Shown here in pieces: positions 29,258-32,400 of a stretch of 32,400 bases of DNA. Below the pieces are notes generated by a model, which saw only the letters and a program-made list of their open reading frames with translations, was not told the DNA's origin and did no database searches. Position numbers and translations under genes: made by a program. Source of the stretch: an uncultured bacterium (lineage in GTDB: Bacteria > Verrucomicrobiota > Kiritimatiellia > CAIKKV01 > CAIJXV01); assembly GCA_903824675.1 (NCBI GenBank), contig CAIJXV010000109.1, positions 1 to 32,400 of the forward strand. Direction: 5' to 3'. The stretch's first letter is position 1. Every line of letters begins with the position of its first letter.

Positions 29258-29719
29258 TTAATGTTTTCCTGATCCGGAAGGAAGCGGTTGGGTCTGTTCC
29301 CGGATGATATAAATCCGGTCATAGGGCCGACCATAAGGCCCTCCGCCGTACCCGTCATTATCAAAACGGTTCCGATGGCTCCATTCATGGAAGGCCGCGT
29401 CGCGCGCGGCGGCATCCAGATAGGTCTGTTGCATATAATTGATCACCGCATCGGGCACTCCGTCCGCCTTCAGTTCGGCCAACTGGCTCGCCTGGAGCCG
29501 GTAGACCGTGCCCGACGTCTTCATCTTCTGAATGATGTCATCCGCAGGGATGCCGGCTTTACACATTTCGACGATCTGAGGAACCGTGATGGGTTCAGGC
29601 CGGGGTTTTCCCAGATGGGCACACCCGCAGCACAATAGAGCGGCAATCACAGCACCCAGGCCGGCCGACTTCACTAGATTACCAGCCGTCGGATTCACGA
29701 TCCTATGCATGAAGTTCAT
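29258..29719 (-). CDS. Lipoprotein with two short repeated helical motifs
   Basis: 153 residues. A signal peptide with a lipobox (AALLCCGC, lipid Cys at about 33) predicts membrane anchoring. The mature region holds VPQIVEMCKAGIPADDIIQKMK and LAELKADGVPDAVINYMQQ, two helical repeats of a type common in PVC and proteobacterial lipoproteins. The C-terminus is Gly/Tyr/Arg-rich. GAGAGGA lies ahead of the ATG. Function unknown. Convergent with the aminotransferase gene, leaving no room for a terminator between. Confidence 0.78.
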   Translation of the reverse strand: MNFMHRIVNPTAGNLVKSAGLGAVIAALLCCGCAHLGKPRPEPITVPQIVEMCKAGIPADDIIQKMKTSGTVYRLQASQLAELKADGVPDAVINYMQQTYLDAAARDAAFHEWSHRNRFDNDGYGGGPYGRPYDRIYIIREQTQPLPSGSGKH

Positions 29720-29800
29720 TGTTGCGCCGTCCTCTCCGTGTGAATTTCAAATGAGCATTACGATATTCATAATCATACAAAATGAAGGGCTCTCCAGCTA

Positions 29801-30055
29801 TTGAAAAAAAGATTCAGATTGATTGAAGGGTATGCGATCTATTGGAACGATGCTGACCCCGCGTCGTCGAGGCAGGCGATGCTCTTCTATACCAGGGATG
29901 GATCCGTTGTTGCCGGACTAGCTGTGGAGCAGGATGTAGCCGATGACACATTGAGAGATATGGCGGCCTTTGTGGGGTCGCATCACGCGTTGCTCGGCTC
30001 AGAACAACGTCCTCCAGACACGGCAGAGGCATTCATTGCCCTCTGCAATACCTGA
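29801..30055 (+). CDS. Small hypothetical protein
   Basis: 84 residues from a TTG at 29801 with only a distant GAAGG. It reads plausibly as a folded protein (RLIEGYAIYWNDADP, MLFYTRDGSVVAGLAVEQ, then a helix and a tail) but no family is recognised. It may start further in. Confidence 0.45.
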   Translation: MKKRFRLIEGYAIYWNDADPASSRQAMLFYTRDGSVVAGLAVEQDVADDTLRDMAAFVGSHHALLGSEQRPPDTAEAFIALCNT

Positions 30056-30094
30056 GACGCCACTCCCCCTCGCTACGCCGGTGACACGGCGTCT
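30055..30094. repeat. Nested inverted repeat downstream of 29801 gene
   Basis: AGACGCC (30055-30061) pairs with GGCGTCT (30088-30094), and an inner CGCCG/CGGCG pair lies within. It overlaps the stop codon of the preceding frame. It could be a terminator without a U-run, or a recombination site. Confidence 0.4.
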
Positions 30095-30570
30095 GCTTAC
30101 GCACAGGCCGCGCATTTATTGATGTTTGCTGGTATGTCCGAAGCGTTGCAGGCAATTCGATCGCTTGGAAGGTTCAGCGGGGATGGTCTGGCGCGATAGT
30201 GTCCGCGTTGGGGAATTGAGGGAGCCCTGCCCGCAGGGGACGCCGGCAACTTTCCAGTCTGAACGGAAACTTCGGGGGTCGGCCCGCCAAAGTACTCACA
30301 ACCCTCCTGTGGCCATTCACGGCTGCCGTCGGCTGGCTTGAAGGCATAATCGGCTGAGCCTGCCGGCTGGTTCGCTGTGGCCGATCGTGTGGGTTTGACA
30401 CCTGAACGCTGAGCGGCCATTAGCCGGCTTGATGGAGTTTTGCCAGGCAAGCCCGATGGTCAGGGTTGAGACGATAGTTGGGCGATAGACTTAATAATTA
30501 CAGATGAACCCTGAGGATCTTCCGGAAATAATGGCTTGAATAATAATGATATTAGCAATACGATAGCATT
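30056..30570. other. Gene-poor stretch
   Basis: About 500 bases with no supportable gene. Minus-strand frames at 30097-30450 are low in family-like content. A CCCTG/CAGGG hairpin and GC-rich fragments suggest decayed accessory DNA. Confidence 0.45.
30536..30564 (+). promoter_or_regulatory. Candidate brnT promoter
   Basis: TTGAAT (30536-30541) and TACGAT (30559-30564), 17 apart. The brnT ATG at 30571 begins seven bases after the -10, so a leaderless transcript is expected. TAATG (30544-30548) and CATTA (30567-30571) could form part of an autoregulatory operator. Confidence 0.5.
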
Positions 30571-30873
30571 ATGAATGGAATGAGATTCACATGGGATGCA
30601 GATAAGGCAAAGGCCAATCTGCGTAAACATGGCGTTTCTTTTGAGGAGGCGACATCCGTCTTTGCCGATGAAAAGGCTCGATTGAAGCACGATCCCGAAC
30701 ATTCGAAGGAAGAAGACCGGTTTATCCTCCTCGGATTCAGTTCTGTGCTTCGTATTCTGGTTGTCTGTCATGTTTATCGGCAAGGGGATCAAGTGATCAG
30801 GCTTATTTCGGCTCGTAAAGCAACCCGTAACGAACATCAGCAGTATGGGAGGGACTATGAAAAAGGAATATGA
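30571..30873 (+). CDS. brnT: BrnT-type toxin (RelE-like ribonuclease)
   Basis: 100 residues. FTWDADKAKANLRKHGVSFEEATSVFADEKA is the family N-terminus, and LISARKATRNEHQQY at the end contains the conserved Arg-Lys-Arg/Glu cluster. BrnT toxins cut mRNA and stop growth. Most relatives begin at the MRFTWD Met (30580), but the promoter geometry favours 30571. It overlaps the antitoxin start by 17 bases. Confidence 0.87.
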   Translation: MNGMRFTWDADKAKANLRKHGVSFEEATSVFADEKARLKHDPEHSKEEDRFILLGFSSVLRILVVCHVYRQGDQVIRLISARKATRNEHQQYGRDYEKGI

Positions 30874-31069
30874 TTTCTCGGATTCGGTTCGAAATCCTTA
30901 TGCCAAGTATTTTCGAAAACAGGTCACCATGCGTCTGGGGACGGATGTTATCGATTATTTTAAAGCCCTGGCAAAGGAGACTGGCGTGCCATACCAGAAT
31001 CTGATCAACCTGTATCTTCGGGAGTGTGCCCATTCAGGCAAGAAACTCGCTCTGAAATGGGCATCCTAA
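30857..31069 (+). CDS. brnA: BrnA-type antitoxin
   Basis: 70 residues of ribbon-helix-helix type, with QVTMRLGTDVIDYFKALAKETGVPYQNLINLYLRE carrying the DNA-binding strand and two helices. GGGAGGG precedes the ATG. It should neutralise BrnT and repress the operon. A DNA-binding CopG-like relative is the alternative. Confidence 0.82.
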   Translation: MKKEYDFSDSVRNPYAKYFRKQVTMRLGTDVIDYFKALAKETGVPYQNLINLYLRECAHSGKKLALKWAS

Positions 31070-31148
31070 ATTTGGGGCTGGATATTGCAATTATCGTCCT
31101 CGTTTCTGAAATCTGTCTGGTTTTCCCATTGTCTGAAAACTCATCCGG

Positions 31149-31181
31149 CGGAGGCGCATCGAAATAGCCAAAACGCCTCCG
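31149..31181. repeat. Hairpin next to direct repeat
   Basis: CGGAGGCG (31149-31156) and CGCCTCCG (31174-31181) are a perfect 8-bp inverted repeat that ends one base before the first 22-bp direct repeat. Confidence 0.7.
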
Positions 31182-31203
31182 AGGTGAAATAAAGGTGAAA
31201 TTT
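31182..31203 (+). repeat. 22-bp direct repeat, copy 1
   Basis: Begins AGGTGAAATAAAGGTGAAAT and is identical to 31488-31509. Each copy itself holds two GGTGAAAT half repeats. Confidence 0.9.
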
Positions 31204-31385
31204 GTCGGGAAAAGGCGGGAAATCAAAAAAACGCATCGTTGCCACTACGAGGATTTAGAGACAAACCAAAGCATGAATGGAAAGCCCATCGACGCAGTCG
31301 CTCTGCTCTTTTGCTCAGGGCATTCGCCGCGCCCACTCTGCGGGTGGCCTGCCATGAGCAAGCCCACTACAATGGGCGCGTCGAA

Positions 31386-31405
31386 TGGCGGAGAGGGGGG
31401 GACTC
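31386..31405 (-). other. tRNA-Ser 3'-end-like fragment
   Basis: TGGCGGAGAGGGGGGGACTC on the plus strand is the complement of a tRNA-Ser 3' end: CCA, discriminator G, acceptor CCTCTCC and a C-rich T-stem. The rest of the tRNA is absent. It resembles the scrap left by integration into a tRNA gene. Confidence 0.45.
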
Positions 31406-31487
31406 CCTATTCTGCTGATTTTATTTATACACATCATAATTATTATCAATATGTTACGCATATCGAAGAATTGATTAAAAGGCATTT

Positions 31488-31509
31488 AGGTGAAATAAAG
31501 GTGAAATTT
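31488..31509 (+). repeat. 22-bp direct repeat, copy 2
   Basis: Identical to 31182-31203, 306 bases downstream. Confidence 0.9.
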
Positions 31510-31598
31510 TGGGCGCTCTGGGTCGGTTTCACTGCCATTTTATCTGATAAGGCCAAAATAAGATAGACAGACAGAAGCACGATCCATATTATTAGGAC

Positions 31599-31844
31599 AT
31601 GCCTGTTGTGTTCAGATTCGAGGGATATCGGTTTTTCTTTTACTCGAATGAAGGTGCGCCACGAGAACCCTTGCATATTCATGTGCGCCGGGGCGATGTG
31701 GTTGCCAAGTTTTGGCTTGAGCCCATTCCGGAAGTCGCAGAATCCTACGGCTTGTCCGCGCATGAATTGGGGGAGCTACTGGACGTAGCCGTCAGACACA
31801 CAGATGAGATTCGGAGGTTTTGGAATGAACACTTTGCTAGCTGA
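31599..31844 (+). CDS. DUF4160-domain protein
   Basis: 81 residues, opening with VVFRFEGYRFFFYSNEG and REPLHIHVRRGDVVAKFWLEP, the DUF4160 pattern with its conserved HxHV. These small proteins usually sit with DUF2442, as here. A toxin-antitoxin role is suspected but not proved. AGGA precedes the ATG closely. Confidence 0.82.
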   Translation: MPVVFRFEGYRFFFYSNEGAPREPLHIHVRRGDVVAKFWLEPIPEVAESYGLSAHELGELLDVAVRHTDEIRRFWNEHFAS

Positions 31845-32085
31845 ACCCGTGGCCATTCGGCTTCACTTCGATCGGGACACGTTATGGGTAGACCTGGCGG
31901 ATGGTCGACAACTGGGTGTTCCTTTGGCGTATTTCCCGCGCCTTCTTAAGGCGACTCCTTCCCAGCGCGATCAGTACACGATAAGTGGCGGCGGAACCGG
32001 ATTACACTGGGATGATTTGGACGAAGATATTGCTGTTTCCGGACTTCTCATGGGTCTGGGCGACCGGATGCGCAAAGCATCCTGA
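31825..32085 (+). CDS. DUF2442-domain protein
   Basis: 86 residues from the ATG at 31825, with GGAGG at 31813-31817. LWVDLADGRQLGVPLAYFPRLLKA and GLHWDDLDEDIAVSGLLMG are the DUF2442 signature, an acidic small fold. It overlaps the DUF4160 gene by 20 bases, so the two are translated together. Confidence 0.86.
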   Translation: MNTLLAEPVAIRLHFDRDTLWVDLADGRQLGVPLAYFPRLLKATPSQRDQYTISGGGTGLHWDDLDEDIAVSGLLMGLGDRMRKAS

Positions 32086-32133
32086 TATCCAGTCTGTGAT
32101 TGTCAAAAATCCCGCCCAAAAATCCTATCTCTA

Positions 32134-32400
32134 ATGAGTTCACTATACCGCCGGCGATGGGGGCGGTCTATTCGATTTTTTTCGAGACGCTGGCGACCAT
32201 TGAACGGAAAAGCTTTCATATTGCACTATGCCAAAACCACCGGGGCAGATTCGCCCGGCAATGGGAAGTTATCCTTCCGGTGTGACGCCGCTGTCGCGGC
32301 TTTCCGTTATGCGGTAGTGGAGTTTGACAACCTTCCCAGGCCGGAGCAATTTGCATTCTGGCACTCGATTATCAGCAAGGACCTGCTGGATGTTGCCGTC
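32134..32400 (+). CDS. Primase/replication-type protein, partial, likely frameshifted
   Basis: The frame is open from 32086 through the right edge, with an ATG at 32134, giving at least 89 residues. GNGKLSFRCDAAVAAFRYAV, EFDNLPRPEQFAFWHS and KDLLDVAV match the part of phage/plasmid primase-like proteins just before the SGGKS(I/V)H motif, which would lie outside. The first 25 residues (SSLYRRRWGRSIRFF) look out of frame. The neighbouring frame from 32100 (VYSIFFETLATIERKSF) fits better as the N-terminal part, so a single-base shift near 32220 is likely. This may be a decayed element. Confidence 0.55.
   Translation, partial: MSSLYRRRWGRSIRFFSRRWRPLNGKAFILHYAKTTGADSPGNGKLSFRCDAAVAAFRYAVVEFDNLPRPEQFAFWHSIISKDLLDVAV

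Follow-up and report, generated by a model that had tools for sequence, protein, structure and literature searches.

The tyrT repeats of E. coli (rtT RNA) are tandem units that follow a tRNA gene and each carry about 19 nt of the tRNA 3' end; we know of no GIY-YIG gene at that locus. In phages, free-standing GIY-YIG homing endonucleases of the SegB type adjoin tRNA genes, as stated in the available part of PMC13096335. In REP/RAYT systems and REPINs, short palindromes flank the gene for a small DNA-processing enzyme and gene-less copies exist as well, and the CGTC class of REPs has no transposase (available sections of PMC3733652). Finally, integrative elements are described in the accessible text of PMC9897764 as leaving partial tRNA 3' ends in genomes.

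The window, that is the whole stretch of 32,400 bp analysed here, is contig C109 in full, from an assembly of 4.24 Mb in 124 contigs. In one of its spacers, a first-pass annotation had noticed 22-bp direct repeats, a hairpin and a tRNA-Ser 3'-end-like fragment between the repeats, and had taken the set for the trace of an integrative or cassette-type element. The fragment is real, and a mobile-element trace using a tRNA-Ser end is retained here; the integrative or cassette-type unit bounded by the repeats is not. With a probability of about 0.7, positions 31233-31405 of the minus strand are the decayed and displaced copy of a small mobile element, which consists of a palindromic leader anchored to a tRNA 3' end and a domain-only GIY-YIG gene. 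Its parts and the neighbouring genes are listed below.

30571 to 31069, plus strand: BrnT/BrnA toxin-antitoxin genes (Pfam), neighbours outside the element.
31233 to 31274, minus strand: putative decayed start of a GIY-YIG gene with a broken frame (alignment to nuclease starts, profile).
31284 to 31405, minus strand: conserved element in full, the tRNA-Ser 3' scrap with its palindromic leader (covariance model, relatives at tRNA ends).
31284 to 31322, minus strand: second palindromic block, TGCCCTGAGC...CGTCGATGGGC (alignment A1).
31323 to 31335, minus strand: 3' arm of the main stem, TGGGCGCGGCGAA (named stem, letters).
31373 to 31385, minus strand: 5' arm of the main stem, TTCGACGCGCCCA (named stem, letters).
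31386 to 31405, minus strand: 20-nt tRNA-Ser 3' scrap ending in CCA, GAGTCCCCCCCTCTCCGCCA (comparison with tRNA-Ser genes).
31599 to 32085, plus strand: DUF4160/DUF2442 gene pair (Pfam), neighbours outside the element.

The spacer thus lies between two gene pairs, as had been noted, with BrnT/BrnA on one side and DUF4160/DUF2442 on the other. On the minus strand, the last 20 nt of a tRNA are followed by TTCGACGCG... and its matching arm ...CGCGNCGAA, then by GCCCTGAGC...GTCGAAGGGC. This conserved unit of 122 bp, which takes in the scrap and the middle of the spacer, had escaped the first-pass annotation; it scores 129.8 bits over positions 1-128 of the covariance model presented below, the copy itself being part of the training set. 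No integrase was found among the nine frames of 29258-32400 put to Pfam, no Rfam family reached its gathering score in the window, where sub-threshold matches were chance-like only, and plasmid and phage sequences gave no match. Outside the element, 44 bp at 32257-32300 are 98% identical to G013:C20 and G010:C374 with unmatched flanks, and 32127-32179 gave short, repeat-like matches (79-95%) to two places on contig C13 of the same genome.

The scrap differs from the tRNA-Ser(GCT) of a relative, G047, at 1 of 20 positions, and from the four tRNA-Ser genes of its own genome at 3, 3, 3 and 4 of 20, which suggests that the scrap may derive from another genome or from an older allele. The own genome holds tRNA-Ser genes for all four anticodons elsewhere. 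The tRNA-Ser(GCT) has no leader, the tRNA-Ser(GGA) is followed by TTCGACGAGCC, possibly a stub, and the genes for TGA and CGA are each accompanied by a palindrome and by a GIY-YIG gene that belongs to another subtype. At the CGA gene (L119, G000:C18), palindrome and GIY-YIG gene are followed by what appears to be the tail of a gene of the window subtype, as if two elements were present at one tRNA.

Behind the window leader stand about 42 bp, ATGCTTTGGTTTGTCTCTAAATCCTCGTAGTGGCAACGATGC (31274-31233, minus strand), that align with the beginnings of the nuclease genes L049 (score 39) and L046 (score 35), neither score being reached in 500 letter shuffles; for the other 11 of the 13 stretches tested, at least 7 of 500 shuffles did so. 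In the same way, a profile built from 15 nuclease gene starts found its best place in the window at this remnant, from profile position 1 onwards, at an E-value of 0.56 for the whole window, a value that goes with a short remnant and counts against our reading. There is thus moderate sequence evidence that the window keeps the decayed start of a GIY-YIG gene.

Comparison of 30500-32300 with 58 genomes, the own one included, gave dispersed matches on about 31282-31405, besides matches to both gene pairs and a few short ones; the relatives obtained in this search included none from the genus or family of the window organism. In most of the loci read, the element stands directly behind an intact tRNA gene, mostly a tRNA-Ser. 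Fifteen copies were aligned (A1) and served as the basis of a covariance model. In A1, 87.8% of cells pair in the named stem, and changes on both sides of the stem were found in 8 cells, against 2.3 in shuffled alignments (0 of 500), and each of the six slid versions gave less; the stem used for this count was picked by eye, and one copy, L044, is misaligned there. Further pair types, one of five stem measures, did not exceed the shuffles (427 of 500), and RNAalifold chose on A1 a different fold, which has no compensatory pairs and is counted against our reading. The both-sided changes and the decayed gene start are counted in favour of our reading.

Searching the class with the model gave 69 hits (E <= 1e-4) in 44 of 240 genomes, all of which were read. 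A tRNA or tmRNA gene ends directly before the leader in 47 of them, at model position 20 in 42 cases and at position 17 in five tmRNAs; the genes abutted are those for Ser (four anticodons), Asn, Tyr, Val, Thr, Ala and Gly as well as tmRNA, and an extra copy found by BLAST lies behind a tRNA-Asp. This share is biased towards tRNA genes because the training copies came mostly from tRNA-Ser ends and the last 20 nt of the tRNA are part of the model itself, a bias from which the nuclease-first count given below is free. The other 22 hits comprise, by reading, five apparent tRNA or tmRNA genes missed by ARAGORN or cut by a contig edge (G010:C267, G009:C4, G121:C161, G198:C7 and G127:C78), six further copies standing behind a first copy, nine scraps, that of the window among them, and two degraded ends. 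In the wider phylum, hits at E <= 1e-7 were obtained in 27 of 387 genomes; of ten new ones read, five abut a tRNA, four carry a scrap and one has a degraded end, two more (G306:C1:2892109 and G346:C170) having been left out of the reading. At five tmRNA ends (G104, G157, G084, G036, G058), the leader follows directly after ...CCTCCA and starts three bases earlier than at tmRNAs ending in ...CCTCCACCA, with CCA kept in both. At L043 (G028:C8, 1400-2170), a tRNA-Ser(GCT) is followed by four leader units about 107 bp apart, a GIY-YIG gene and one more unit.

Behind several copies, at a distance of at most a few hundred bases, lies a small open frame that encodes a GIY-YIG domain. All ten members of the protein set A2 match PF01541 (E <= 0.001), one of them at 56.4 bits against a cut-off of 22.6, and GIY-YIG is their only Pfam family. 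PF01541 has hits in 57 of the 58 genomes, UvrC-sized frames included; 74 places with small frames were taken, further small ones remaining outside the set; 69 were located and five were not. The proteins measure 73-133 aa, one broken frame excepted. A tRNA or tmRNA gene on the same strand within 500 bp was found upstream of 42 of the 69, downstream of 3 and on the other strand in none; once nine loci fetched through the element are set aside, 34 of 60 still have one upstream. The remaining 27 of the 69 do not stand at a tRNA and are counted against our reading, as are two of five nuclease clades that never do. In a tree of 68 of these nucleases, in which 19 of 65 forks are open and many are weak, linkage to a tRNA requires 15 changes against 21.0 after shuffling (0 of 500), and among the 42 linked genes the identity of the tRNA requires 20 against 28.8 on average in shuffles (0 of 500), with a Ser group, an Asn pair, a Met group and Pro pairs visible.

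In parallel, 80 of 573 relatives of the window-type protein were kept in a scan of named genomes. Twenty-one of them lie within 500 bp behind a tRNA or tmRNA gene on the same strand (tmRNA 7, Ser 9, Gln 3, Ala 1, Asn 1), compared with none on the opposite strand and one downstream, in records from Verrucomicrobia, Kiritimatiellae, Opitutales, Planctomycetota, Lentisphaerae, Omnitrophota, Nitrospira(ceae), Desulfobacterales and a delta proteobacterium. ARAGORN found no tRNA there for the other 59, many of them from sphingomonads, and these too count against our reading. A motif of the TGAG...GTCGAA type occurs within 200 bp upstream at 55 of 79 and downstream at 30 of 77 named loci, against 11 of 521 background windows; it is present on both sides at 24 of 76, only two of which are at tRNAs. 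Inverted repeats of any kind near the nuclease genes differ little (median 6 vs 5), while those reaching 11 were found upstream at 15% and downstream at 6%, against 0% of shuffles. One own locus, L058 (G000:C50), has a GIY-YIG gene of a subtype not seen at tRNAs, with TGTCATCTCGA-type palindromes about 300 bp upstream and others downstream.

One genus represented by 14 genomes allowed a comparison of sites, the tRNA-Tyr locus with its conserved following gene being readable in ten species. Four sites are empty and six are filled, both states thus occurring at the same site, between species rather than strains. In G091, G142, G183 and G156, the tRNA is followed by a short spacer only and then an ordinary, separate terminator. 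The filled sites hold different palindromes (G055, G150, G208), short hairpins (G198, G065) or palindromes with a GIY-YIG gene (G172), the latter complete, with an open frame and a PF01541 score of 62 bits. All six inserts begin directly after CCA, and at one tRNA-Tyr the whole insert is about 0.4 kb. Different leaders are seen at the same tRNA-Tyr in G055, G172 and G198, and the tRNA-Thr is also leader-bearing in two. In a second genus (g5, of the own order), no clean empty site was found, a result that is counted against our reading. The abutting hits and upstream tRNAs counted above, the tRNA choice that follows the tree, these empty and filled sites and the flanking motif together argue for a tRNA-anchored GIY-YIG element that is probably mobile; that the sites were compared between species, no movement having been seen, counts against this reading.

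How it might do so can be sketched. The nuclease, which probably drives the movement, would cut an unoccupied site just behind a tRNA gene, and repair would use an occupied tRNA locus as the template to copy in leader and gene. Since the element begins only behind the CCA, the essential tRNA would remain intact. At off-target sites, the copied tract would carry along about 20 nt of the donor tRNA 3' end, and repair copying of this kind would leave a scrap such as that of the window. The hairpins may be a recognition or processing signal for the nuclease. For the clades away from tRNAs, a REP-like mechanism of hairpin processing is equally open.

Scrap copies away from intact tRNAs bear on this sketch. 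Among 13 of them, the match to intact ends stops at 17 nt in the window, 21 in L035, 21 in L252, 11 in L039, 19 in L258, 20 in L262, 4 in L236, 23 in L244, 26 in L271, 17 in L314, 19 in L316, 18 in L322 and 11 in L321, which is shorter than in 44 of the 47 intact ends, where it reaches at least 30 nt. By reading, nine of the 13 break at 17-23 nt, where the T loop lies. Some scraps are close to a tRNA, which counts against our reading: L316 and L322 stand about 100-130 bp behind a tRNA-Ser, and L252 runs out at the contig edge in a copy of the 3' flank of a tRNA-Ser(GCT). A tRNA-Ser thus lies, or by sequence match probably lies, 100-160 bp ahead of these three, which could be additional copies at a locus already occupied. 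Such neighbours, and a junction of scrap and leader that is exactly as at intact tRNA genes, would also be expected had a tRNA-Ser gene with its element once stood at the window site and lost the tRNA body up to the T loop by a later deletion, nothing having been copied in. Random deletions, however, would not place most of the 13 breaks in or near the T loop, and tRNA-Ser genes for all four anticodons are present elsewhere in the genome, so this history is judged unlikely. There is only a slim chance that the leader is instead a feature of the host, for instance a conserved tRNA trailer, a terminator or a small RNA, beside which the GIY-YIG gene would be incidental. It is indeed structured and always lies directly 3' of the tRNA and on its strand, and two leaders, L042 and L044, have no nuclease start in the stretch read behind them. 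On the contrary, the four species with empty tRNA-Tyr sites do without it, it is scattered over various tRNAs in less than a fifth of the genomes of the class, it occurs in tandem and away from tRNAs, and in seven element loci only tRNA, and no family for the leader, reached an Rfam gathering score.

The 22-bp repeats enter into the remaining alternative, close to the view of the first-pass annotation. They and the hairpin are as follows.

31149 to 31181, plus strand: 8-bp hairpin with a 17-nt loop, arms CGGAGGCG (31149-31156) and CGCCTCCG (31174-31181).
31182 to 31203, plus strand: 22-bp direct repeat, copy 1, AGGTGAAATAAAGGTGAAATTT (exact match to copy 2).
31488 to 31509, plus strand: 22-bp direct repeat, copy 2, AGGTGAAATAAAGGTGAAATTT (exact match to copy 1).

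Both were correctly described: the repeats are identical, 306 bp from start to start, and the hairpin abuts the first of them. The longest exact direct repeat in the 1901 bases of 30500-32400 is 22, against a maximum of 14 in 1000 letter shuffles, and the hairpin region (31140-31190) has a fold z of -2.8, with no T run behind it. A search of the own genome at up to 3 mismatches, with two inner positions free, gave no further copy of the 22-mer. Repeats unique to this spot, with no tRNA-Ser of matching 3' end in the genome, had been named as the outcome that would tell against the earlier view; the repeats are unique, and the tRNA half holds only in part, as there is a match of 28 bp at 93% to the own tRNA-Ser(GGA) that reaches bases beyond the tRNA (23 of 24 bp in a second comparison). 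Their role as element ends was rejected: the conserved unit is 31284-31405 plus the GIY-YIG remnant, its relatives are anchored to tRNAs, and neither repeats nor hairpin were found with other copies. Among 11 copies tested that have no adjacent tRNA, a long direct repeat at about +-80 bp was found in the window and L252 only, the other nine having none above shuffles. The exact repeat of L252 measures 17 bp at a distance similar to that in the window; it is no target duplication, because the native tRNA-Ser flank (154 bp, 98.7%) begins at the contig end, spans the right repeat and stops only 6 bp short of the element, and the like spacing is taken to be a coincidence. In addition, the AGGTGAAAT motif was found at none of the 17 brnTA or DUF-pair loci read. 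On present evidence, repeats and hairpin lie outside the element, and the repeats, which fit no part of the proposed explanation, are left unexplained. An attR-like trace of a tyrosine-recombinase island in a tRNA-Ser, with the repeats as attachment sites, would agree with the habit of integrases to target tRNA 3' ends and leave such scraps (available text of PMC9897764). It is nevertheless highly improbable, given that the 22-mers and the tRNA end have no sequence in common, that several loci show a GIY-YIG gene at most a few hundred bases behind a leader at a tRNA end, and that the tRNA-Tyr insert leaves no room for an integrase.

The window copy of the tRNA-anchored GIY-YIG element is a remnant, yet it points to a recurrent type of element that is undescribed as far as searched. 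A broader proposal, held at somewhat less than even odds, is that minimal elements of this kind are widespread in bacteria, a domain-only GIY-YIG nuclease spreading palindromes that in some clades home to tRNA or tmRNA 3' ends and in others, such as those of sphingomonads and Chloroflexi, lie away from them, and that part of the scraps in genomes are their footprints. If true, this would give a job to many bacterial GIY-YIG proteins of about 90 aa, explain tRNA 3'-end scraps that come without an integrase, suggest which enzyme may serve one class of palindromic repeats and account for harmlessness by a beginning exactly at the tRNA end. With the tRNA-Tyr loci compared in one genus, the idea can be put to the test.

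Among the literature matches listed (titles and abstract beginnings, in an open-access collection without preprints and most subscription journals), none concerned chromosomal GIY-YIG genes with palindromes at tRNA ends, and the tyrT repeats were not brought up. The latter resemble the present element by tandem units carrying a tRNA 3' end. A link to CGTC-tagged REPs was rejected, a CGTC/TGTC/CCTC tag with an AT-starting stem of 8-9 bp being present within 300 bp at 0 of 69 loci; one CGTC-type tag with a stem lies farther off, in L058. Identity with a REPtron was likewise discarded, as this calls for an HUH transposase and the A2 proteins are GIY-YIG only. The SegB type shares a GIY-YIG nuclease gene beside a tRNA, but is found in phages at tRNA clusters, whereas here the gene follows one tRNA on a bacterial chromosome, and its description in the available part of PMC13096335 includes no palindromic leader joined to the CCA of a tRNA. 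Unlike the tRNA fragments made by integrases, as far as the accessible text of PMC9897764 presents them, the scrap here adjoins a conserved leader and either a GIY-YIG gene or what is left of one. Finally, REP/RAYT systems have in common with the element palindromes beside the gene for a small enzyme and copies without this gene; according to the available sections of PMC3733652, however, their enzyme is a tyrosine (HUH) transposase, whereas here it is a GIY-YIG nuclease and part of the family is anchored to tRNAs.
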